DNA from: Phycicoccus avicenniae | GTDB taxonomy: Bacteria; Actinomycetota; Actinomycetes; Actinomycetales; Dermatophilaceae | Direction of reading: 5' to 3' | Length of the DNA stretch: 64,000 nt | NCBI RefSeq assembly: GCF_018139485.1 | Contig: NZ_JAGSNF010000025.1 | Span: forward strand, 1 to 64,000 | Position numbers and translations under genes: made by a program | Notes under the pieces: model-generated | What the model saw: only the letters and a program-made list of their open reading frames with translations | What the model was told of the DNA's origin: nothing | The model's database searches: none | Shown here: piece after piece, positions 1 to 12,754 of the stretch | Numbering within the stretch: position 1 is the first letter of the stretch | Layout of the letters: each line of letters opens with the position of its first letter

Positions 1-59
1 CCACGACCCGAGACGCCCGCCCACTGCGCGGCGTGAGCACCGGACGGGCGACCTCGACC

Positions 60-2975
<2,916 letters not shown>

Positions 2976-3016
2976 CTCGTCCTCGTCGTCGTCAGGTCGG
3001 GCGTCCTCGGGCCATG

Positions 3017-3041
3017 AAAAAACCCCTCGCTCAGGAGGGGT
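3017..3041 (-). terminator. Intrinsic terminator in the leuS leader (attenuator)
   Basis: Read on the minus strand, CCCCTC-CTGAGC-GAGGGG forms a 6-bp GC stem with a 6-base loop followed directly by six T residues. It lies 42 bases upstream of the leuS ATG and downstream of the small Leu-rich ORF, so it would stop transcription before leuS unless an alternative fold forms. T-tracts are otherwise very rare in this window, which makes it stand out. Confidence 0.8.
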
Positions 3042-3068
3042 CGCCGCGCGGGCCGGGGGCCGGCGCGG

Positions 3069-3095
3069 CTAGCGAAGCAGCAGGCCGCTCGTCAC
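3069..3095 (-). CDS. Candidate leuS leader peptide, MTSGLLLR
   Basis: Nine codons (GTG ACG AGC GGC CTG CTG CTT CGC TAG) encode MTSGLLLR with three consecutive leucine codons just before the stop. The GTG lies six bases after a TACCCT -10 element, so the transcript would be leaderless and begin with this ORF. The stop is followed by a GC-rich hairpin-capable segment (GCCGCGC/GCGCGGC) and then by the terminator at 3017-3041. This is the arrangement of a ribosome-mediated attenuator, known in actinobacteria for amino-acid biosynthetic genes such as leuA. Here it precedes the synthetase gene. Translation of the peptide is inferred, not shown. Confidence 0.65.
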   Translation of the reverse strand: MTSGLLLR

Positions 3096-3101
3096 GCGCT
3101 C

Positions 3102-3107
3102 AGGGTA
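3102..3107 (-). promoter_or_regulatory. -10 element of the leuS leader transcript
   Basis: TACCCT on the minus strand, six bases before the leader-peptide GTG at 3095. No convincing -35 is visible. Confidence 0.55.
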
Positions 3108-3137
3108 GCGCACGGGCCGCCGCCCCGGCCGTGGGCC

Positions 3138-3464
3138 TCAGTGCCCGCCGCCGCGGAGGTTGAGCAGGACGACCCCGGCGACGACGAGGGCGAGACCGAT
3201 GAGCCGGGCCGGGCCCAGGTCCTCGCCGAGGAAGAGGTACCCGATGACGGCGACCGCGGCCACCCCGAGGCCGGCCCACACGGCGTAGACGACCGAGACG
3301 TCCATCTGCTGCACGACGAGGGCGAGCAGCCAGATGGCGACGAGGTACCCCGCGACGACGAGCGCCGACCACCCCGGCTGGGTCAGCCCGCGGGTGCGCG
3401 GCAGGGTCGCGGTCGCCCCGACCTCGGCGGCCACGGCGAGCAGGAGCAGGACGAACGGGGGCAT
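3138..3464 (-). CDS. SMR-family small multidrug efflux protein
   Basis: A 108-residue inner-membrane protein with four hydrophobic helices, the normal size of EmrE/QacE/SugE proteins. The essential membrane-embedded glutamate of the family is Glu14 (AAEVGAT). The C-terminal half has the family's 'VVYAVWAGLG' and 'GEDLGPARLIGLALVVAGVVLLNL' features. It would export small cationic compounds in exchange for protons; the substrate cannot be read from sequence. ATG has a good ribosome-binding site (GGGAGG). It is divergent from a TetR regulator and its promoter region carries two matching palindromes, so repression by that regulator is likely. Confidence 0.9.
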   Translation of the reverse strand: MPPFVLLLLAVAAEVGATATLPRTRGLTQPGWSALVVAGYLVAIWLLALVVQQMDVSVVYAVWAGLGVAAVAVIGYLFLGEDLGPARLIGLALVVAGVVLLNLRGGGH

Positions 3465-3489
3465 CGCGGACCTCCCTCGGCGACGCGGC

Positions 3490-3507
3490 GTGTAGCGGGT
3501 GCTACAC
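3490..3507. promoter_or_regulatory. Operator palindrome 1 for the SMR/TetR pair
   Basis: Perfect inverted repeat GTGTAGCGGGTGCTACAC (7-bp arms, 4-bp centre) between the divergent efflux and TetR genes, on the SMR side. Confidence 0.75.
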
Positions 3508-3514
3508 CGCCAGC

Positions 3515-3528
3515 GTAGCAGTCGCTAC
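3515..3528. promoter_or_regulatory. Operator palindrome 2 for the SMR/TetR pair
   Basis: GTAGC-AGTC-GCTAC, the same half-site and spacer length as palindrome 1. The two centres are 23 bp apart. The right arm runs into the TACACT -10 (3526-3531) of the TetR gene, so binding would block its own transcription. Confidence 0.72.
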
Positions 3529-3531
3529 ACT
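3526..3531 (+). promoter_or_regulatory. -10 element of the TetR gene
   Basis: TACACT ends eight bases before the GTG at 3540 and overlaps operator 2; the mRNA is probably leaderless or nearly so. Confidence 0.5.
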
Positions 3532-3539
3532 CACTCCCC

Positions 3540-4088
3540 GTGGGACGCCGGGAGGAGATCGTCGAGGCCGCGACCGACCACGCCCTGGACCACGGGCTCG
3601 TCGGGCTGAGCCTGCGGCCGCTGGCCGAGGCGCTCGGGACGAGCGACCGGATGCTGCTGTACCACCTCGGGAGCAAGGACGCGCTCGTCGCCGAGGTCGT
3701 CCGATGCGCCACCGCCCGTGCGCTCGAGCGGCTCCGGGCGCTGCCGGCGAGCGCCTCCCCCGGCGCCGCCGTGCGGGACCTGCACCGGCTCTGGGAGGCG
3801 CCCGCCGTGCGCCGGTGTCAGCGGCTGCACGTCGAGGCGTCCGCGCTCGGGCTCTTCGGCCGGGAGCCGTACGCGTCGACGGTCGGGTCGGCCAACGCCC
3901 TGTGGTCCTCGGCGGTCCGCGACCACCTGGCCCGTTCGGGGGTCCCGGCGGCCCGTCTCGACGGGGTCACCCACCTCGTCGACGCCACCTTCATGGGGCT
4001 CGAGCTCGACGCCTCGTTCGGCTCCCCCGCCGGCCCGGCGCTCGAGACCCTCGTCGCCGCGGTCGAGCGCCTCTGCAGCGGCTCCTGA
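3540..4088 (+). CDS. TetR-family transcriptional regulator
   Basis: 182 residues. The N-terminal part (about residues 1-50) is a TetR helix-turn-helix: 'LSLRPLAEALGTSDRMLLYHLGSKDALVAEV', read in overlapping pieces, matches the family's GxxxLYxHFxxKxxLxxxV pattern. The C-terminal ligand domain is divergent, as usual. It is divergent from the SMR efflux gene, with two identical palindromic half-site pairs between them, so it most likely represses that gene and itself until a drug-like ligand binds. GTG was chosen as start because the HTH begins almost at once and a -10 lies eight bases upstream. Confidence 0.88.
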   Translation: MGRREEIVEAATDHALDHGLVGLSLRPLAEALGTSDRMLLYHLGSKDALVAEVVRCATARALERLRALPASASPGAAVRDLHRLWEAPAVRRCQRLHVEASALGLFGREPYASTVGSANALWSSAVRDHLARSGVPAARLDGVTHLVDATFMGLELDASFGSPAGPALETLVAAVERLCSGS

Positions 4089-4118
4089 GCGCACGTCGTG
4101 GACGTCCGACGACACGAC

Positions 4119-4150
4119 GAGGGGCCCGCCTCGACGGAGGCGGGCCCCTC
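4119..4150. terminator. Bidirectional hairpin terminator between tetR and sortase genes
   Basis: Perfect 14-bp stem GAGGGGCCCGCCTC / GAGGCGGGCCCCTC around a GACG loop, between two convergent genes. There is no T-tract, as is common in high-GC actinobacteria. Confidence 0.75.
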
Positions 4151-4174
4151 GGCCGTCGGGTCGGACACGCGGCG

Positions 4175-4864
4175 TCAGGCAGCCTGGACGACCTTCGCGT
4201 AGACGACGACGTTGTCCTCGTAGTGCCCGGTGCCCTCGTTGATGTCCCCGCCGCAGGTGATGAGGCGCAGCTCGGGACCCTCGGTGTTGCCGTAGACCGA
4301 GGCGGTCGGGAAGGCGTTCTTCGCGTAGCGGTCGATGCGGTAGACCTCGAAGGTCACGTCCTCGCCGTCCGCACGGGTCACGGTGACCTCGTCACCCTCC
4401 GCGATGCCGCCGAGCTCGAAGAACACCGACGGACCGGTGCTCACGGAGTCGACGTGGCCGAGCAGGACGCTGGGGCCGAGCTCGCCGGGCGACGGGGACC
4501 CGGTGAACCACGCGGCCTCGTCGTACTGCGGGCCGTGCTGCGGCACCTGGATCTCGCCCTCGGCGTTCAGGCCGGTCTCGTTGACGACCGAGTCGATGTC
4601 GACGCTCGGCGCCTGCACCCGGACGGCGGCGGACCGGGACATGCCGGTCGGCTCCGGCTCGGGCTCGGCGCTCGGCTCGCTCGACGGGGTGTCGGTCGGC
4701 GACGGTTCGGGCTCGCTGCGCGGCGCCGCGTCCGTCACGGGGGGTGGCTGCGGGGCGCTCTCCTGGCTCGCCAGGGCGGTCCCCAGCGCACCGGCCCCCG
4801 CGAGGACGAGCACCGCGGCCACCGCCGCCAGGAGGCGACGGTGGCCGAGGCGTGGGAGTCGCAC
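4175..4864 (-). CDS. Class F-like sortase, with altered catalytic position
   Basis: 229-residue membrane-anchored transpeptidase: N-terminal hydrophobic anchor (about 10-32), a Pro/Glu/Ser-rich linker (34-74) and a C-terminal sortase barrel. The catalytic His is His137 in 'LLGHVDS' and the catalytic Cys is Cys204 in 'LITCGG'. In class E/F sortases the next strand usually reads '(S/H)YRDNVVV', supplying the catalytic Arg; here it is 'HYEDNVVV', with Glu216 at that place. I aligned this by memory of the family, so the substitution should be treated as probable. It begins two bases after the stop of an exported CHRD-like protein, implying one operon and possibly a substrate-enzyme pair. Confidence 0.85.
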   Translation of the reverse strand: MRLPRLGHRRLLAAVAAVLVLAGAGALGTALASQESAPQPPPVTDAAPRSEPEPSPTDTPSSEPSAEPEPEPTGMSRSAAVRVQAPSVDIDSVVNETGLNAEGEIQVPQHGPQYDEAAWFTGSPSPGELGPSVLLGHVDSVSTGPSVFFELGGIAEGDEVTVTRADGEDVTFEVYRIDRYAKNAFPTASVYGNTEGPELRLITCGGDINEGTGHYEDNVVVYAKVVQAA

Positions 4865-4866
4865 GG

Positions 4867-5622
4867 TCAGGAGCGCTCGTCCGCGGTCCGGCGACGCGCC
4901 GCGAGCAGGCCGAGGCCGGCGCCACCGACGAGGAGGGTGCCGCCGAGGGCCGCGAGGCCGGCCTCCTCCATGCCGGCCGTGGAGCCGCCACCGGTCTCGA
5001 CGCCGCCACCGGGCATCTCGGTCATCTGGCCGGCGGTGAGCACGCCGCAGGCGGCCGGGTTGGTGGCCTCCTCCGGGAGGGAGTCGTCGAGGTCGGACAT
5101 GACCTCGCCGTCGTACTCGCCGCTGCCGTTCTGGTCGACACCGTGCAGGACGACGACGGCGGTGCCGTCCTCGATCGCCGCGGCGACGTCGTCGCTCACC
5201 TCGAAGCTGCGCTGGTAGGAGTCGTCACCGACCGGGAAGCGGTCGACGGCCAGTCCGCTGTCCGGGCTGGTGTCGCCCTCGGTCGTCAGCGAGGCGCCGA
5301 TCATGCCGTACTGGTCGGCGGCGTCGCTGACCTGCAGGGCCCCGTCGGCGCCGCTGCCCTCGTCGTCGTTGCTCGGGCACTGGCCCATGCCACCGATGTG
5401 GATGTGCTGGGCGTGGGGCGAGCCCGCGAGCAGGCCCTGGCTCTCGATCGAGATGTCCAGGGTGTTCCCGTCGAGCGTCGCCATCGCCGTGCTCGTCACC
5501 CCGGAGTCGTTGAGCTGGGTGAGGTTCGCCGTGTAGGTGCCGTCCGCGGCCGACGCCGGGAGGGCGGCGAGCGGGAAGGCCCCGAGGGCGAGGGCGGCTG
5601 CTGCGGGGATGGACTTTCGCAT
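4867..5622 (-). CDS. Exported CHRD-like cell-surface protein
   Basis: 251 residues with a Sec signal peptide (MRKSIPAAAALALGAFPLAA, cleavage near 'ASA-AD'), a mature domain containing 'HAQHIHIGGMGQC' and 'VVVLHGVD', typical of CHRD-like or Cu/Zn-SOD-like secreted domains, and a C-terminal tail with a hydrophobic span (about 222-243) ending in RRR. This tail resembles a cell-wall sorting signal, but no clear LPxTG pentapeptide precedes it. Its gene lies directly upstream of the sortase gene. Function is unknown; a surface-displayed protein is the safe reading. The upstream 120 bases hold a purine-rich RBS (ACGGAGAC). Confidence 0.75.
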   Translation of the reverse strand: MRKSIPAAAALALGAFPLAALPASAADGTYTANLTQLNDSGVTSTAMATLDGNTLDISIESQGLLAGSPHAQHIHIGGMGQCPSNDDEGSGADGALQVSDAADQYGMIGASLTTEGDTSPDSGLAVDRFPVGDDSYQRSFEVSDDVAAAIEDGTAVVVLHGVDQNGSGEYDGEVMSDLDDSLPEEATNPAACGVLTAGQMTEMPGGGVETGGGSTAGMEEAGLAALGGTLLVGGAGLGLLAARRRTADERS

Positions 5623-5742
5623 GGATCGTCTCCGTTCGTCTCGCCGGTGCGGGAGGGACGACGCCGTTCCACGCCGTGAGGCAGCTCCCGTCGGCGTCAG
5701 GGGTTCGGGAGGGTCCGCCCCGTGGATTGGACCGATCTGCGG

Positions 5743-7212
5743 TCAGCGCACGTCCAGGCCCTCGGCGTACCCGCCGCGGCGCATCTCGAGGACGTCCCGC
5801 GGGTAGCTCTGGACGACCCGCCACGGGCGCCGCCCGGCCTGGCGCGGCAGCAGGTGCGCGCCGCGGCGGACGTAGCCCGCCATGAGCGGCAGCAGCGGCC
5901 GGGCCTCGTCCCCCGAGCCGTCCCACCGGGGCGTGGCGACCGTGAGCCCGCGGCGGTCCATCCAGCCGAGGAGCCCGGTGACCCACCGGGCGGTGAGGTC
6001 CGAGCGCAGCGTCCAGCTCGCGTTGACGTACCCGACGGCGAGGGACAGGTTCGGCACGCCGGACAGCATGCAGCCGCGCAGGACCCAGCGTTCGCCGACC
6101 TCGACGGGCTCGCCGTCGACGGTGATGTCGGCGCCGCCGGCGACCTGGAGCCGCAGCCCCGTCGCGGTGACGACGACGTCGGCGTCCAGGACCGAGCCGT
6201 CGACGAGCCGGACCCCCTCGGGCACGACCCGGTCCAGCGCGCTCGTCACGACCTGGGCCGCTCCGGTGGACAGCGCGTCGAGGAGGTCCCCGTCGGGTGT
6301 CACGCACAGCCGCTGGTCCCACGGGTCGTACCGCGGCCCGAAGTGGGTGTCGACGGGGTAGCCCGCCGGCAGCCGCCCGAGCAGCCGGCGGCGCAGCACG
6401 CGCCGCCCGGCCCCCGGGAAGCGGCGAAGCGCCGCGTAGGACAGCCCGGACGCCACGACGTTCCGGACCCGGACGGCCCGCCCCGCGACGTCCTCGGGCA
6501 GGACGCGGCCCAGCCTCGCGGCCCCCGGGTCGCGCGAGGGGAGGGCGGCGACGTAGCCGGGGCTGCGCTGCAGCATCGTCACGTGGGCCGCGCCCCTCCG
6601 GACGAGGGCGGGGACGAGGGTGACGGCCGTCGCGCCGCTGCCGACGACGACGACCCGGCGGCCCGCGACCTCGAGGTCGGGTGGCCAGTGCTGGGGGTGC
6701 ACGACGTCGCCGTCGAGGGTGTCGAGGCCGGCGATGCCGGCGTCGTGCGGCTCGTCGTAGGAGTAGTAGCCGGTGGCGAGGTGGACGAACCGGGCCCGGT
6801 GGGTGAGGACCTCGCCGTCGGCACGGACCGCCGTCACCCGCCAGCACCGCTCGCCGGAGTCCCACGCGAGGTCGGTGACCCGTTGACCGAGGTGCAGGCG
6901 GGCGTCGACCCCGTACGCGTGGGCCGTCTCGCGGACGTAGCGCAGGATCTCCTCGCCGGTGACGATGGAGCGCTCCCCCGTCCACGGCCGGAACGGGTAG
7001 GCGAGGGTGAACATGTCCGAGTCCGAGCGGACCCCGGGGTAGCGGAAGAGGTCCCACGTGCCGCCGAGGTCCTCGCGCGCCTCCACGACCGCCCACGTCA
7101 GGTCGGGACGGTGCATGGCGAGCCGGGCCCCCGTGCCGACGCCCGAGATGCCGGCGCCGACGACGAGGACGTCGACGTCGAGCGGCTGCGGGGCCATCGG
7201 GTCGCGGGTCAC
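5743..7212 (-). CDS. ethA: EthA-like flavin-containing (Baeyer-Villiger type) monooxygenase
   Basis: FAD- and NADPH-dependent oxygenase of 489 residues, the same length as mycobacterial EthA. It shows the FAD-binding 'VVGAGISGVG', 'GGTWDLFRYPGVRSDSDMFT', the Baeyer-Villiger-like fingerprint 'LDGDVVHPQHWPPD', a second nucleotide fold 'VVVVGSGATAVTLVPAL', and 'TATGL' near the C-terminus. Enzymes of this type oxidise ketones or activate thioamides; the natural substrate is not evident. A GTG start at 7212 is chosen because TACGGT ends eight bases before it, giving a leaderless message; an ATG at 7197 is also possible. Divergent from the metallophosphoesterase gene. Confidence 0.88.
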   Translation of the reverse strand: MTRDPMAPQPLDVDVLVVGAGISGVGTGARLAMHRPDLTWAVVEAREDLGGTWDLFRYPGVRSDSDMFTLAYPFRPWTGERSIVTGEEILRYVRETAHAYGVDARLHLGQRVTDLAWDSGERCWRVTAVRADGEVLTHRARFVHLATGYYSYDEPHDAGIAGLDTLDGDVVHPQHWPPDLEVAGRRVVVVGSGATAVTLVPALVRRGAAHVTMLQRSPGYVAALPSRDPGAARLGRVLPEDVAGRAVRVRNVVASGLSYAALRRFPGAGRRVLRRRLLGRLPAGYPVDTHFGPRYDPWDQRLCVTPDGDLLDALSTGAAQVVTSALDRVVPEGVRLVDGSVLDADVVVTATGLRLQVAGGADITVDGEPVEVGERWVLRGCMLSGVPNLSLAVGYVNASWTLRSDLTARWVTGLLGWMDRRGLTVATPRWDGSGDEARPLLPLMAGYVRRGAHLLPRQAGRRPWRVVQSYPRDVLEMRRGGYAEGLDVR

Positions 7213-7219
7213 GGGGTCC

Positions 7220-7225
7220 ACCGTA
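7220..7225 (-). promoter_or_regulatory. -10 element of the ethA-like gene
   Basis: TACGGT on the minus strand with seven bases to the GTG at 7212, which decides the start. Confidence 0.5.
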
Positions 7226-7256
7226 GGTGTCGGGGCCGCGTGCGACGATGCCGCCC

Positions 7257-8408
7257 ATGAGTGTGCTCGCCGTGGTGGCACCCCTCGCCGTGACGGCCGG
7301 CTTCGTCCTGTTCCTCTGGCACCGGCTCGCGGTCGCGCCCCGGTGGCCGGTGCCCGTGCGGGTCGTCGTCGCGCTCGTCCTCGTCGGGCTCGCCGCGCTC
7401 GTCCCCGTCGGTCTCGACGGGTGGGGGGCCGCCTGGTCCCCCGCGACGATGCGGCCGTTCGCCTGGGTCGGGCAGACCTTCCTCGCGGCGTGCCTCTACC
7501 TCGCGCTCGGTCTCGGGTCGGTGTGGCTCGTGAGCGTCGGGACCTGGCTCGTGCGCCGGCGGCAGGACCACGGTGCGGCCGCCCGTCGTCGGCTCAACCG
7601 GGTGGGCTCGCTGCTCGTCGTCGCGGTCACCGTCGTCGTCACGGGGTACGGGGTGGCGGCCGCGGCCCGGCCGTCGCTCACCGAGTACGAGGTCGCCTCC
7701 CCCACGCTGCCCGCGGAGCTCGACGGCCTGCGCGTGGCCCTCGTCACCGACATCCACGCCGGGGCCGTGCGCGGGGCCGGGTTCACCCAGGGGGTCGTCG
7801 ACCTCGTCCAGGGGGCGCGTCCCGACCTCGTCGTCGTCGCCGGCGACCTCGTCGAGGGGCCCGCCGAGCGGTACGCCGCCGAGATCGCTCCCCTCGCCGG
7901 GCTCACCGCACCGCTCGGGGTGTTCGCGACGACCGGCAACCACGAGATGTACACCGGCGCCGCGGGCTGGGTCGCGGAGTTCGAGCGCCTCGGCCTCACC
8001 GTCCTGCGCGACGAGTCCGTCCGGGTCGGCAGGGACGGCGCCGCGATCCGCCTCGTTGGCCTCGACGACCTCGAGGGCACGGGCACCTTCTCGCCGGACG
8101 TCGAGGCCGCGCTCGAGGACGTCGACCCCGACGAGTTCGCGCTGCTCGCGGCGCACCAACCGCGGCAGGCGCTCGACGTCGAGGGCCGTGGCGTCGACGT
8201 GCAGCTGTCCGGGCACACCCACGGCGGCCAGCTGTGGCCCCTGCGGTACCTCGTGCCGCTCCAGCAGCCCGCGGTCGACGGGGTCGAGGTCGTCGCCGGC
8301 ACGACGGTCGTCACCTCCCGCGGCGTCGGCGCCTGGGGACCGCCGGTGCGCGTGGCCGCCGCCCCCGAGGTCCCCGTCGTCACGCTGCGCCGGGGACCCG
8401 CCCGATGA
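7257..8408 (+). CDS. Membrane-anchored metallophosphoesterase (YkuE/YaeI type)
   Basis: 383 residues. The first ~140 residues contain about four hydrophobic segments; the rest is a calcineurin-like phosphoesterase with all metal-binding blocks: 'LVTDIHAG', 'VVVAGDLVEG', 'TTGNHEMY', 'AAHQP' and 'LSGHTHGGQ'. Relatives hydrolyse phospholipid or lipid-linked phosphates at the membrane; the exact substrate here is unknown. ATG at 7257 is used because the first membrane helix begins there. It overlaps the next gene by 4 bases (ATGA), so the two are translationally coupled. Confidence 0.88.
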   Translation: MSVLAVVAPLAVTAGFVLFLWHRLAVAPRWPVPVRVVVALVLVGLAALVPVGLDGWGAAWSPATMRPFAWVGQTFLAACLYLALGLGSVWLVSVGTWLVRRRQDHGAAARRRLNRVGSLLVVAVTVVVTGYGVAAAARPSLTEYEVASPTLPAELDGLRVALVTDIHAGAVRGAGFTQGVVDLVQGARPDLVVVAGDLVEGPAERYAAEIAPLAGLTAPLGVFATTGNHEMYTGAAGWVAEFERLGLTVLRDESVRVGRDGAAIRLVGLDDLEGTGTFSPDVEAALEDVDPDEFALLAAHQPRQALDVEGRGVDVQLSGHTHGGQLWPLRYLVPLQQPAVDGVEVVAGTTVVTSRGVGAWGPPVRVAAAPEVPVVTLRRGPAR

Positions 8409-9004
8409 GCGACGTCGTCGTCGGCGAGGACGGCCTCGCCCGGCCCCGCTGGGCCGCCACCGACCCCCTGCTGCGCGACTACTACGACACCGAGTGGGGG
8501 ATGCCGGTCCGCGACGAGCGCGGGGTGTTCGAGCGGCTCTCCCTCGAGGCGTTCCAGTCCGGGCTGTCCTGGGCGACGATCCTGCGCAAGCGGCCGGCGT
8601 TCCGCGCGGCGTTCGACGGCTTCGACCCGGACGTCGTCGCCGGCTACGACGACACCGACGTCGCCCGGCTGCTCGGCGACGCGGGCATCGTCCGCAACCG
8701 CGCCAAGGTCCTCGCGACGGTGACGAACGCCCGCGCGACGGTGGCCCTGCGCGAGCACCCCGACGGCGACCTCGCGGCGTTCGTGTGGTCCTTCCGACCG
8801 GCCGACACCCCGCGTCCGCGCGCCCTCGCCGAGGTACCGACGACCTCGCCGGAGTCGGTCGCGCTGTCGAAGGCCCTCAAGCGGCACGGGTTCACCTTCG
8901 TCGGCCCGACGACGATGTTCGCCCTCATGGAGGCGCTCGGCATCGTCGACACCCACCTGCTCGGCAGCCACCGCCGCGGCACGAGCGGGGTCTGGCCCGG
9001 CTGA
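8405..9004 (+). CDS. tag: DNA-3-methyladenine glycosylase I
   Basis: Removes 3-methyladenine from alkylated DNA in base-excision repair. 199 residues, the usual length. The family's aromatic base pocket and catalytic segment are seen in 'YYDTEWGMPVRDE', 'LEAFQSGLSWATILRKR' and 'GIVRNRAKVLATV', and the C-terminal metal/active region in 'FVGPTTMFALMEALGIVDTH'. The initial Cys of the N-terminal 'RCxW' zinc motif of the E. coli enzyme is not present in this N-terminus ('ARPRW'), a variation to note. ATG overlaps the upstream phosphoesterase stop. Confidence 0.93.
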   Translation: MSDVVVGEDGLARPRWAATDPLLRDYYDTEWGMPVRDERGVFERLSLEAFQSGLSWATILRKRPAFRAAFDGFDPDVVAGYDDTDVARLLGDAGIVRNRAKVLATVTNARATVALREHPDGDLAAFVWSFRPADTPRPRALAEVPTTSPESVALSKALKRHGFTFVGPTTMFALMEALGIVDTHLLGSHRRGTSGVWPG

Positions 9005-9053
9005 CCGGTCGGCGTCACCCGGCGCCCCCGTCTCCCCCGGACTGCAACCGCCC

Positions 9054-9097
9054 GCGTGGAGGATCCTCGGGGTCCACGCCCCGGGGATCCTCCACGC
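9054..9097. terminator. Hairpin downstream of tag
   Basis: Long stem: GCGTGGAGGATCC pairs with GGATCCTCCACGC, with an inner CGGGG/CCCCG pairing in the loop. It lies 50 bases after the tag stop and is probably its terminator. Confidence 0.6.
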
Positions 9098-9134
9098 GAC
9101 GCGGCCGGCCCCCACGGACGAGCCCGGGAACGAG

Positions 9135-9168
9135 GAACGGGCCCGGCGAGTACTCGCCGGGCCCGTTC
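9135..9168 (-). terminator. 34-bp perfect palindrome after tRNA-Ala
   Basis: Arms GAACGGGCCCGGCGAGT / ACTCGCCGGGCCCGTTC meet without a spacer seven bases beyond the tRNA 3' end. Likely the tRNA terminator; it may also end transcripts coming from tag. Confidence 0.65.
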
Positions 9169-9175
9169 GACCACG

Positions 9176-9248
9176 TGGAGCTGAGGGGATTCGAACCCCT
9201 GACCCCCTCCATGCCATGGAGGTGCGCTACCAACTGCGCTACAGCCCC
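9176..9248 (-). tRNA. tRNA-Ala (anticodon GGC)
   Basis: 73 bases on the minus strand fold into a full cloverleaf: acceptor GGGGCTG/CAGCTCC with discriminator A, D-arm GCGC-AGTTGGTA-GCGC, anticodon arm CCTCC-ATGGCAT-GGAGG with anticodon GGC, and T-arm AGGGG-TTCGAAT-CCCCT. It reads GCC codons, which dominate alanine in this genome. The 3' CCA is not encoded. Confidence 0.97.
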
Positions 9249-9315
9249 GAGTGGGATGCCCCCGAAGGGGCGACGTGGAGTCTACCCACGCCCGAACCGC
9301 TCCCCCAAATCGGCC

Positions 9316-9972
9316 TCAGGGCACGAAGGTCCCGTCCGCCGGGCCCGGCGCGCCGGTGACGTTCCACGTCCGCAGCCGCCAGCCGTGGGCCCCCTCGACG
9401 ACCTCGCCCCAGTGGCAGTTGCCGAGCGCCCCGAGCATCCGCCAGGCGTCCATGACCTCGATCCCGAGCAGCCACGACACGGCCGCCCGGCCCGCCGCCC
9501 CGTGGGTCGACAGCACGACGCACTCCCCCGCCGCCGTCGCCGCGAGCGCGTCCTCGATCGCCGCGCCGGTGCGGCGCCGCACGTCGGCCAGGGACTCCCC
9601 GCCGCCGGGACGCGGGACGTCCTCCCCGGCCCGCAGGCGGGCGTGCTCGTCGGGCCAGCGGGCCACGATCTCGTCGTTCGTCAGCCCCTGCCAGGACCCG
9701 GCGTGGATCTCGCGGAGCCGGACGTCCTCGGTGATCGGGACACCGGCCGCGGCGGCGACGCTCTCGCCGGTCCGCCGGGCGCGCTGCAGGTCCGAGGTCA
9801 CGACCCGGGCGGGGCCGAGGGCGGCGACGGCCGCACCGGCCGCCTCGGCCTGCTGCACGCCGAGGTCGGACAACGGGCTGTCCAGCTGCCCCTGCCACAC
9901 CCCGGCGGCGTTGTACGTCGTCTCGCCGTGGCGCAGGACGACGACCCGGCGCGGACCCGCGCCGGCGCTCAC
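9316..9972 (-). CDS. Histidine phosphatase (phosphoglycerate mutase-like)
   Basis: 218 residues with the phosphohistidine motif 'LRHGETTYN' near the N-terminus and the second active-site His in 'VVLSTHGAAGR'. Members dephosphorylate small phosphate esters; which one is unknown (glucosyl-3-phosphoglycerate phosphatase and cobalamin phosphatases are related). The GTG start overlaps the stop of rsfS (GTGA), so it is co-translated with nadD and rsfS. In actinobacteria this triplet is a common order, but the functional link is not clear. Confidence 0.88.
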   Translation of the reverse strand: MSAGAGPRRVVVLRHGETTYNAAGVWQGQLDSPLSDLGVQQAEAAGAAVAALGPARVVTSDLQRARRTGESVAAAAGVPITEDVRLREIHAGSWQGLTNDEIVARWPDEHARLRAGEDVPRPGGGESLADVRRRTGAAIEDALAATAAGECVVLSTHGAAGRAAVSWLLGIEVMDAWRMLGALGNCHWGEVVEGAHGWRLRTWNVTGAPGPADGTFVP

Positions 9973-10349
9973 CGTCCGCCCTGCTCGGTCCCGACGACGC
10001 CGAGGTCGATCGCCGGGCAGTCCTTCCACAGCCGCTCGAGCTCGTAGAACTCGCGCTCCTCGTCGTGCTGGACGTGGACCACGATGTCGCTGAAGTCGAT
10101 GAGGACCCAGCGGCCGTCGCGCTGGCCCTCCCGGCGGACGGGCTTGGCCCCGCGCTCGCGCAGGACGTCCTCGACCTCGTCGACGATCGAGCCGACCTGG
10201 CGCTCGGACTCGGCGGAGACGATGACGAAGACGTCGGTCAGCGCGAGCTGGTCCGAGACATCGATCCCGGTGATGGTCGTGGCGAGCTTGTCGGACGCGG
10301 CGGTCGCCGCGGCGCGGGCCAGCTCGAGGGCGCGGTCGGTGGCGGTCAC
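9969..10349 (-). CDS. rsfS: Ribosomal silencing factor RsfS
   Basis: 126 residues of the RsfS/YbeB/iojap family, which binds ribosomal protein L14 on the 50S subunit and blocks subunit joining in starved cells. Recognised by '[27 protein letters not shown]' (read in parts), '[12 protein letters not shown]', and '[15 protein letters not shown]' near residues 80-92. GTG start overlaps the nadD stop and its own stop overlaps the phosphatase start, giving a tightly coupled three-gene operon. Confidence 0.95.
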
Positions 10350-10930
10350 GGTGCTCCTGTGTAGAGGTGGTGCTTCGAGATGTACTGGACGACGCCGTCG
10401 GGGACGAGGTACCAGACCGGGTGGCCGTCCCGGACCCGCTCGCGGCAGTCGGTCGAGGAGATCGCCATCGCGGGGACCTCCTGGAGGGTGACCCGGTCCT
10501 CGGGCAGCCCCGACTCGCTGAGCGGGTACCCGGGGCGGGTGACCCCGACGAAGTGGGCGAGGTCCCAGAGGTCGTCGGCGTCCTTCCACGACAGGATCTG
10601 GGCCAGGGCGTCGGCGCCGGTGATGAAGAACAGCTCGGCGTCGGGGCGGGCGGCCCGCAGGTCGCGCAGGGTGTCGACGGTGTACGTCGCCCCCTCCCGG
10701 TCGAGGTCGACCCGGGAGACGGTGAACCGGGGGTTCGAGGCGGTCGCGACGACGGTCATGAGGTAGCGGTGCTCGGCCGGCGTGACGTCGGACTCGGCCT
10801 TCTGCCACGGCCGGCCGGTCGGGACGAAGAGCACCTCGTCGAGCCCGAGGAGGGACTGCACCTCCGACGCCGCGACGAGGTGGCCGTGGTGGATGGGGTC
10901 GAACGTGCCGCCCATCACCCCGAGCCGCAC
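10346..10930 (-). CDS. nadD: Nicotinate-mononucleotide adenylyltransferase
   Basis: Makes deamido-NAD from nicotinate mononucleotide and ATP. The 194-residue protein begins '[18 protein letters not shown]', holding the nucleotidyltransferase GGTFDPxHxGH motif at residues 7-17, and has the C-terminal '[10 protein letters not shown]' motif (the family's ISSTxIR). GTG at 10930 is the only start that leaves the short N-terminus of the family. It follows the small membrane protein by 11 bases and overlaps rsfS by 4. Confidence 0.96.
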
Positions 10931-10941
10931 GCGGCGCTCGC

Positions 10942-11181
10942 TCAGTGGTGGTCCGTGTGCTCGGGCCAGTGCGGGGCGTCGCTCGTCCCGCCCTCGGCGG
11001 CGCCCTTGGCACCCTGGGCGGGCGGGGCGTACTTGTGGTGGGTGCCCCGGAAGGACCAGGTGACCCCGAGGAGGGCGAGGAAGACCAGGAGGGCGATGAG
11101 CCCGATGCTCCACGCGGGCAGCGGCAGCTCGGTACCGCCGGCCTCCTCGGCCGCGGCGAGGGCGACGACGATGCTCGACAT
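10942..11181 (-). CDS. Small single-pass membrane protein
   Basis: 79 residues: a short outside N-terminus, one hydrophobic helix (about 25-42, '[18 protein letters not shown]') and a His/Gly/Lys-rich cytoplasmic tail ending [10 protein letters not shown]. No enzymatic motif. Similar small proteins sit upstream of nadD in other actinobacteria, so it is probably a real conserved gene of unknown function. The ATG at 11181 is the first gene of the operon. Confidence 0.8.
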
Positions 11182-11216
11182 GGCGGTCAGCCTACCGGGT
11201 GGCTGTCCACCGATTT

Positions 11217-11268
11217 CGTCCACAGGGCTGTGCACGACGGGGGTGTCGTGCGCGGCGGCCTGTGGACG
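11217..11268. repeat. Nested inverted repeat near the nadD operon promoter
   Basis: Outer 10-bp arms CGTCCACAGG / CCTGTGGACG enclose inner 7-bp arms GCACGAC / GTCGTGC. The outer arms are part of TCGTCCACA on each strand, one mismatch from the actinobacterial DnaA box TTGTCCACA. Confidence 0.6.
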
Positions 11269-11632
11269 ACACGCCGCCCGGACCGACGACGCCGGAAAAC
11301 CCCCCGAACAGGTTGCGACGACCCTCGCCGGACGGCTAGAACAGTCCCCACGCCCGCTGCGCGGAGCAGGCCCGGACCCCGAGAACGGTCCGTGCCCGTG
11401 ACGCCCAGGGGTGGGTCGATCGGATAACGGTACGACGCCCTGCGTCCCGGAGACGGGCGCAGGCCGTGCGCCGCCCTCGGGGGGTGCACGCCGCGTGCGA
11501 CGGCGCGGGTACCGCGGCCGACGGCCCGGGAGAAGTCCGTCCCTCGGGGCGGCACCATCGTCGCGTGGTTCACCTCGTGCGGCTCGCCGCAAGGGTCCAC
11601 CGGCCCGCGGGCCGGTGGTTCCGCCGCCGGCC

Positions 11633-11664
11633 GAGGGCCCCCGGTCTCGTACTCGGGGGCCCTC
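11633..11664. terminator. GC-rich hairpin, possible terminator
   Basis: GAGGGCCCCCG / CGGGGGCCCTC with a 10-base loop; no T-tract. No annotated gene ends here, which hints at an unannotated transcript. Confidence 0.45.
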
Positions 11665-11737
11665 CGGCCGCACCTCGGGGGTCGGGTGGGACCTCCCCCA
11701 CCCGCCCGAACGGGTCGATGCCGGGCGCCGCGACGCC

Positions 11738-11743
11738 TACCCT
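11738..11743 (+). promoter_or_regulatory. -10 element of the GT2 gene
   Basis: TACCCT six bases before the ATG at 11750; the message is probably leaderless. Confidence 0.55.
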
Positions 11744-11749
11744 GGGCGC

Positions 11750-12754
11750 ATGCCGGAGCCGGAGCTGTCGGTCGTCGTCCCGATGTACGACGAGCAGGAC
11801 GTCATCCCCCTGTTCGTCGACCGCCTCCGCCCGCTCGCCGAGGCCTGGGGCGTCACGTACGAGATCCTCTGCGTCGACGACGGCTCGAGCGACGCGACCC
11901 CCGTCCTGCTCCAGCGGCTGCGCCGCGAGTGGGACGCCGTGCGGGTCGTGCGGCTGCGGGCCAACGCCGGCCACCAGGCCGCCATCTCCGCGGGCCTGGA
12001 CCGGGCCCGGGGGCGCTACGTCGTGACGATCGACGCCGACCTGCAGGACCCGCCGGAGACCATCGCCGAGATGCTCGCCGTCGCCCGCGAGCAGGACGTC
12101 GACGTCGTCTACGGGGTGCGGGAGGACCGCTCGAGCGACACCGCCTTCAAGCGGGTCACCGCCCGCGCCTTCTACCGCTCCATCCGTGCCCTGTCCGACG
12201 TCGACTCCCGGGTCGACGCCGGCGACTTCCGGCTCATGTCCCGGGCCACCGTCGACGCCGTCAACGCCCTCCCGGAGCAGAACCGGGTGCTGCGGCTCGT
12301 CGTCCCCGCCCTCGGCTTCCCCAGCGCCTCCGTGGGCTACACCCGGGCCGAGCGGGCAGCGGGCGACTCGAAGTACCCCCTCGGCAAGATGCTCCGGCTC
12401 GCCGTCGACGGGGTCACCGGGTTCTCCATCGCCCCGCTGCGGTTCGCGACGTGGCTCGGCCTCCTCGGCGGCGTCGCGGCGCTCGCCGTCCTCGTGTACG
12501 CCGTGGCCGCGATGCTCCTCGGCAACACCCTCCCCGGCTGGACCTCGACGGTGGTCGTCGTCGCCGCCGTCGGCGCCGTGCAGCTGCTCGCCCTCGGCAT
12601 CCTCGGGGAGTACGTGAGGCGCACCTACGCGGCGCTGCAGGCCCGTCCGACGTACTTCGTCGCGCACGACAGCCTCACCGGCGGCGAGGAGCGCGCCGAC
12701 GCCCGGGTCACCCCGCTCCCCCGGCGGGACGCCTCGGGCGGCACGGGCGGCTGA
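11750..12754 (+). CDS. GT2 family glycosyltransferase, GtrB/DPM1-like with two membrane helices
   Basis: 334 residues. The N-terminal GT-A catalytic domain shows 'SVVVPMYDEQDVI', 'LCVDDGSSDAT', the 'ANAGHQAAISAGL' segment and the metal-binding 'IDADLQDPP', followed by 'DAGDFRLM'. Two transmembrane helices (about 230-255 and 265-290) follow. Such enzymes move a sugar from a nucleotide donor to polyprenyl phosphate at the inner membrane face, for wall polymer or protein glycosylation; donor and acceptor are not evident. Upstream in-frame sequence is open but has no coding character, and the TACCCT -10 element supports the ATG at 11750. Confidence 0.9.
   Translation: MPEPELSVVVPMYDEQDVIPLFVDRLRPLAEAWGVTYEILCVDDGSSDATPVLLQRLRREWDAVRVVRLRANAGHQAAISAGLDRARGRYVVTIDADLQDPPETIAEMLAVAREQDVDVVYGVREDRSSDTAFKRVTARAFYRSIRALSDVDSRVDAGDFRLMSRATVDAVNALPEQNRVLRLVVPALGFPSASVGYTRAERAAGDSKYPLGKMLRLAVDGVTGFSIAPLRFATWLGLLGGVAALAVLVYAVAAMLLGNTLPGWTSTVVVVAAVGAVQLLALGILGEYVRRTYAALQARPTYFVAHDSLTGGEERADARVTPLPRRDASGGTGG

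Follow-up and report, generated by a model that had tools for sequence, protein, structure and literature searches.

The leucyl-tRNA synthetase gene (leuS) of the 64,000-nucleotide stretch of Phycicoccus avicenniae DNA analyzed here (the window) is preceded on the minus strand by a compact element comprising a promoter-like hexamer, a leader ORF with a run of leucine codons, a stem-loop (P1), and an intrinsic terminator. We infer, with a probability of about 80%, that through this element leuS is subject to ribosome-mediated attenuation of transcription, as has been predicted for leuS in Streptomyces; the conservation of leader, leucine run, stem, and terminator in front of leuS supports this reading well. 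The parts are arranged as follows:

3102 to 3107, minus strand: -10 hexamer TACCCT, six bases before the leader GTG
3069 to 3095, minus strand: leader ORF from GTG to TAG, encoding MTSGLLLR; predicted to be leaderless, with its start codon at the expected 5' end of the transcript
3075 to 3083, minus strand: putative control codons CTG CTG CTT, the final CTT at 3077-3075 ending five bases before P1
3043 to 3069, minus strand: stem-loop P1, identified by folding, with arms at 3069-3063 and 3049-3043 and an inner GGCC/GGCC helix
3017 to 3042, minus strand: intrinsic terminator, with arms at 3042-3035 and 3028-3021, loop CTGAGC, and a six-T run at 3022-3017
60 to 2975, minus strand: leuS, leucyl-tRNA synthetase of 971 aa, with its ATG at 2975 (TIGR00396, 846 bits against a cut-off of 548)

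The leader (3095-3069, minus strand) reads GTG ACG AGC GGC CTG CTG CTT CGC TAG, i.e., eight sense codons and a stop codon, the latter 93 bases from the leuS start. The TACCCT hexamer, the GTG-started ORF for MTSGLLLR, and the CTG-CTG-CTT run (3107-3069, minus strand) are all located where the preliminary description had placed them, and of the features that it reported before leuS, the GC hairpin segment was recovered by folding and the six-T terminator by both scanning and folding. The scan of positions 2900-3600 returned two overlapping terminator-like sites, both at the position and on the strand of the element (shuffle mean 0.0), and an intrinsic terminator is present between leader and gene by sequence criterion. 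Positions 3095-3015 fold at -45.7 kcal/mol, compared to -34.4 kcal/mol (sd 3.4) for shuffled sequences (z -3.3), and none of 200 shuffles was as low. A sigma-70-type promoter scan of 2900-3600 found none, and hence no consensus -35. A T-box riboswitch is absent: positions 1-12000 of the window gave four matches to Rfam at E <= 1, none of them a T-box and none in the leader. Another Rfam family was likewise rejected, given that 15 loci with leuS, leuA, cimA, or ilvB elements yielded only one partial tmRNA at E <= 0.1. The gene upstream of the element (3138-3464, minus strand) encodes a small multidrug efflux protein of the SMR family, is co-directional with leuS, and ends at 3138, 43 bases ahead of the leader GTG; it scores under the curated cut-offs of specific resistance families.

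Conservation was assessed in a set chosen by LeuS similarity, for which the best 80 of 186 relatives were retained; the upstream region was present in 79 of these and missing in one (L044). Leader, stem, and terminator were found together in 56 of 80 leuS upstream regions (the window plus 79), or 55 of 79 without the window. The carriers include Intrasporangiaceae (the nearest named being Phycicoccus sonneratiae and P. jejuensis), Ornithinimicrobium, Serinicoccus, Arsenicicoccus, Micromonospora, Actinoplanes, Asanoa, Saccharopolyspora, Amycolatopsis, Brachybacterium, and others. The preliminary description had named beforehand a lack of conservation of the leucine codons or terminator in relatives as grounds for its refutation, and had suggested asking whether the ORF and leucine run are kept while the flanks vary; leader, leucine run, and terminator are conserved in the 56 regions, so that this test did not refute it, and the sequence upstream of the element is entirely different between relatives. 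A TANNNT hexamer lies 6-7 bases upstream of the leader start codon in 53 of the 56 elements (exceptions L021, L024, and L025), a spacing that by itself would put the start codon at the expected end of the transcript.

The element is missing in 24 of the 80 regions, mostly from Actinomycetaceae, Mycobacteriales, Dermacoccus, and Brevibacterium (L006, L013, L016, L027, L028-L033, L038, L051, L052, L054, L059, L065-L069, L071, L077, L081, and L083). Janibacter melonis (L006; identical sequence in L190) keeps TACCCT; the short ORF that follows has no leucine codons, and a terminator is absent. Knoellia aerolata (L011) retains the element, whereas Knoellia remsis (L016) does not; Phycicoccus elongatus (L013) also lacks it. 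In Rhodococcoides (L077 and L081), where the element is absent, a TACGCT hexamer lies six bases before the leuS GTG, and leuS itself looks leaderless.

A covariance model (R1) was made from 37 elements. At E <= 1e-6 it gave 60 matches in 198 genomes of the order, and all 60 lie just upstream of leuS on the same strand (59 placed by LeuS similarity in the DNA and one, G080, by coordinates; of the 59, 57 were confirmed by script, and L132 and L133 via an N-terminal LeuS match 56 and 48 bases away, respectively). LeuS identity to that of the window is at least 60% in 29 of the 59 matched loci and lower in the other 30; as judged from these comparisons, the element precedes two LeuS types. It has been lost in some close relatives, for example Janibacter melonis, Phycicoccus elongatus, and Knoellia remsis. 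Genome G175 has two LeuS genes of different type, and the R1 match is before the more distant one (L126, 39% identity), not the closer one (L127). Outside the class, the element was found before leuS at five loci (genomes G280, G497, G505, G573, and G209). R1 matched 86 of the order's 198 genomes at E <= 0.01, and within the phylum it matched 31 of 396 genomes. The weaker matches are of several kinds: among those whose DNA was read, some are assigned by the next ORF to leuA (L106, L111, L116, L122, and L123), ilvB (L109 and L114), or cimA (L117 and L119), and others look like chance (L107, L108, L110, L112, L113, and L118). A family relative (L115; 1395-1292, minus strand) has a leader-like ORF (MARQLVILSSRGEFR) and a GC stem approximately 300 bases before leuB, with a short ORF between the leader-like ORF and leuB. 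At the leuS loci L120, L121, and L124 the leader is retained with no recognizable U-tailed terminator; the P1 stem is also kept in L120 and L121.

P1 and the terminator coevolve. Among 73 model-aligned matches, six of the seven lower-stem pairs of P1 and two of the four terminator pairs are changed on both sides somewhere. In an alignment fitted to the model structure, 97.0% of cells are paired, compared to 39-64% when the alignment is slid, and none of 500 shuffles reached any of the measures. The lower-stem GCCG is more constant than pairing requires. A terminator hairpin with at least three T in the next eight bases was parsed in 122 of 127 distinct elements (the five others being L120, L124, L126, L172, and L176), and the length of the P1 loop varies between 3 and 52 bases. 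There is no overlap between P1 and the terminator, which fold together, with a spacer of 0-1 base in 99 of the 122 parsed elements, the upper limit of spacing being set by a parser that admitted only 0-5 bases between them.

The last leucine codon of the run is nearly fixed. It is CTT in 55 of the 56 elements of the LeuS-similarity set and in 116 of 127 distinct elements of both sets, the sequences being related and so not independent, and the second set leaning toward CTT because R1 was built from CTT-bearing elements. A further 14 model matches before leuS, missed by the leader finder and outside the 127, were read individually and have CTT in 12 cases, giving 128 of 141 in total. Eight of these 14 have single-leucine leaders (L102, L125, L182, and L184-L188), in which that codon adjoins the stem; seven carry CTT, and L182 carries CTC. 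CTT followed by five bases and GCCG occurs in 118 of the 127 distinct elements, while the leader stop codon varies (TAG two codons past CTT, or TGA five codons past it); it is therefore the distance to the stem that is conserved, not the peptide tail. In the leuS genes, CTT accounts for 7 of 3756 leucine codons (56 genes, 55 of them over the first 2700 bases), and for none of the 80 in the leuS of the window. Among 40 of the genome's 41 tRNA matches, ARAGORN identified leucine anticodons UAG, CAA, GAG, CAG, and UAA, with no AAG, so that CUU would be read by wobble. Low-usage control codons are expected to increase sensitivity, the Salmonella leu attenuator is weakened by CUA to CUG changes (PMC1183508), and CUU and GUA are named as conserved control codons of the Corynebacterium glutamicum ilvBNC attenuator (PMC11857589). 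The motif CTNCTNCTTN5GCCG alone is not specific, occurring at seven sites in the genome of the window, compared to 56 for the reversed control pattern, and when the six sites besides the leuS leader were read, none had a leader context; the complete arrangement is informative, not the leucine motif alone. The near-fixed CUU and the fixed five-base distance amount to a simple, testable rule for the site at which a ribosome would wait.

Under the proposed attenuation of leuS, transcription would begin at the leader GTG, and a ribosome would load straight onto the 5' end of the transcript and translate MTSGLLLR. With ample charged tRNA-Leu, the ribosome would clear the leucine run and depart at the stop codon, upon which P1 would fold and the terminator would halt most transcripts ahead of leuS. 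Scarcity of charged tRNA-Leu would make the ribosome wait with CUU in its A site. With five bases between the end of this codon and P1, the paused ribosome is modeled to cover the lower 5' arm of P1, such that P1 could not form and more polymerases would get past the terminator. For mycobacterial ilvB1, a 26-base footprint centered on the codon has been used (PMC13236596); applied here, it has a ribosome on CUU reaching over the first six bases of P1, and one on the first leucine codon leaving P1 uncovered. Since a ribosome paused at the stop codon would likewise sit over P1, the model calls for its quick release. Against the model stand the lack of a visible antiterminator and the 24 leuS regions without the element. 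The leucine attenuation of leuS put forward in the preliminary description is supported as regards the conserved leader, leucine run, stem, and terminator, whereas no competing antiterminator was demonstrated for the step from a stalled ribosome to read-through.

Two alternative readings concern that step. The element may operate by classical attenuation with a true antiterminator, in which a ribosome blocking the 5' arm of P1 leaves the 3' arm (GCGCGG) free to pair with the loop of the terminator (CCUGNG); we consider this unlikely, though not far-fetched. When partial transcripts of 25 selected elements were folded with a ribosome on the final leucine codon, this pairing appeared in some; in several it belongs to the best partial fold before the 3' arm of the terminator is made, for example in L004, L008, L011, L012, L019, and L064. 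Antiterminator hairpins are also named for Streptomyces leuS in the 2005 study (Seliverstov et al., PMC1262725), although such a hairpin could not be confirmed here: native pairing was no better than in the controls, its energies being lower than those of shuffled loops in 38 of 92 elements (p 0.14) and lower than those of swapped arms in 47 of 92 (p 0.09), the arm-swap test having low power because both the 3' arm of P1 and the terminator loop are nearly constant. Furthermore, the loop of the window (CTGAGC) has a mismatch, and several loops have no complement. A systematic search of six upstream regions against three terminator regions, in 68 representatives of the 122 parsed elements, found four of the 18 region pairs slightly better natively, none significantly (p >= 0.458), and five significantly less complementary natively than between elements (p 0.003-0.036). 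The positive controls of this search scored 61 of 68 (P1 arms) and 68 of 68 (terminator arms); the third control, the P1 loop halves, scored 56 of 68, its mean being meaningless because some duplex energies failed. No antiterminator pairing with coevolution was found, and the switching step from stall to read-through is thus putative; the lack of a visible antiterminator makes it a testable question.

Alternatively, P1 may itself be the antiterminator, as modeled for C. glutamicum ilvBNC and mycobacterial ilvB1, with a ribosome stalled upstream permitting it and one at the stop codon blocking it. P1 occupies the interval from just past the control codons to the terminator, as does the antiterminator hairpin described for ilvBNC (PMC11857589), and a ribosome at the stop codon masks the antiterminator in the ilvB1 model (PMC13236596). 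We nevertheless regard this as improbable, in view of the compatibility of P1 with the terminator (no overlap, short spacer, both folding together) and of the 26-base footprint, by which a ribosome on CUU would already cover the start of P1, leaving the preferred stall codon misplaced. Because P1 and the terminator can coexist, P1 cannot act as an antiterminator simply by excluding the terminator, and we take it to be a putative pro-termination element that the waiting ribosome would break. Two readings that dispense with leucine sensing are far weaker. It is very improbable that the terminator merely ends the transcript of the SMR-type efflux gene, with a leuS promoter further down and the small ORF arising by chance: the co-directional gene does end close to the leader ORF, but the terminator sits in a unit with its own -10 hexamer and leader ORF that is kept before leuS across many lineages even where the upstream sequence is completely different, and a chance ORF would not preserve the CTT spacing rule. 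A role of the leader in boosting leuS translation by ribosome loading (reinitiation), with no amino-acid sensing, has a precedent in a similar function suggested in general terms for the leader genes of actinobacteria (PMC4833913), but is scarcely credible here, as the leucine codons, the rare CTT, and the terminator would need no conservation and the leader stop codon is far from the leuS start for reinitiation.

Attenuation of leuS is itself already known. Predictions of classical attenuators ahead of leuS and trpS in Streptomyces date from 2005, those for leuS covering S. coelicolor and S. avermitilis (Seliverstov et al., PMC1262725), and RNA-seq of S. lividans in 2021 identified a leaderless leader peptide, LeuL2 (MRAVRLLLSEPR), with a hairpin and a U-stretch terminator before leuS (PMC8079986). 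The view in the preliminary description that a synthetase under such control is less usual is therefore not sustained. Like the element of the window, the Streptomyces leuS attenuator and LeuL2 are situated before leuS and comprise a short leader with leucine codons, a stem, and a U-tailed terminator; LeuL2 has the same anatomy, with its RNA-seq start at the leader (PMC8079986). The exact LeuL2 peptide was read in several family f21 genomes matched by R1, and one covariance model scores the window at 82.7 bits and genomes with this leader at 67-77 bits; by sequence, the window element, directly before leuS, is homologous to the Streptomyces-type leuS attenuator. The leaders differ in length (8 residues in the window, 12 in LeuL2), with an early TAG in the window where LeuL2-type leaders have GAG. 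The present analysis adds breadth, the rule of CTT plus five bases, the cimA and ilvB units and related leuA leader described below, and the negative antiterminator result, and shows that the leuS attenuator of two Streptomyces genomes and S. lividans is widely retained among actinobacteria, where it would control an essential synthetase.

The enterobacterial leu attenuator precedes a biosynthetic operon and has a Shine–Dalgarno leader start and an overlapping antiterminator. The window element differs in preceding a synthetase gene and in its predicted leaderless start, and resembles it in the use of rare leucine sensing codons, CUA there and CUU in the window (PMC1183508). C. glutamicum ilvBNC, for which a three-hairpin attenuator model has been tested, likewise has a near-leaderless leader peptide with CUU among its control codons, a hairpin right after, and a terminator; its antiterminator and terminator overlap by a boundary GCC, whereas P1 and the terminator in the window do not overlap (PMC11857589).

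Leaders of similar layout precede other genes in the genome of the window. The citramalate synthase gene (cimA) is preceded by a putatively leaderless leader ORF (MTFRDAATTAIIIG) with the isoleucine codons ATC ATT ATC, a stem, and a terminator (L198, G000:C2, upstream of 67259, minus strand). At 30 cimA loci, chosen as the best from the 47 cimA-bearing genomes among 79, 20 such leaders were found by script and three more were read by eye (L198, L203, and L206), so that leader, stem, and terminator precede cimA at L197, L198, L200, L202, L203-L213, L215, L217, and L220-L225. ATT occurs at least once in all 21 cimA leaders considered (L203 and L210 left out), compared to 0 of 369 isoleucine codons in 39 long ORFs of the window; this leucine and isoleucine codon background is biased against CTT and ATT, the ORFs having been picked for GC3 >= 0.85. 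The stem begins exactly five bases past the final isoleucine codon in 14 of the 21. No description of a cimA attenuator was found in the open-access literature searched, and the shared layout points to a further target of isoleucine control. The ilvB leader (MARVLVLRQRA; L234, G000:C2, upstream of 82260, minus strand) is followed by a stem and a terminator, and its final control codon is CTT, five bases before the stem.

We tentatively posit, as a possibility short of an even chance, a family of tiny leaderless actinobacterial attenuators that share a single layout at leuS, cimA, and ilvB, and in part at leuA, and that work without a classical antiterminator. In such a family the start codon would be at the transcript end, and control codons including a rare wobble NNU codon (CUU for leucine, AUU for isoleucine) would be followed by exactly five bases, a GC-clamped stem, and a terminator directly abutting the stem. 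The stem would promote termination, perhaps through stacking with the terminator, and would be disrupted by a ribosome waiting at the final control codon; if so, the cimA switches would represent a new regulated target.

The genome of the window also encodes a leuA leader (MRSSRLLLRRRGGA; L194, G000:C24, upstream of 152657, minus strand), with no T-run terminator seen in the 150 bases read. The leuA leaders L194, L122, L123, L116, and L111 share with the leuS element a CTT-ended leucine run and a GC stem and show no T-run terminator over the part that was read, and R1, a leuS model, weakly matches four of them (L111, L116, L122, and L123). The LEU element of actinobacterial leuA likewise has a leucine run ending in CTT and then a GCCGCG-type stem; it is described as a pseudoknot near the leuA Shine–Dalgarno box without a terminator, whereas in the window a terminator follows the stem (PMC1262725). 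These leuA leaders possibly represent the same sensor as the leuS element, connected to another output.
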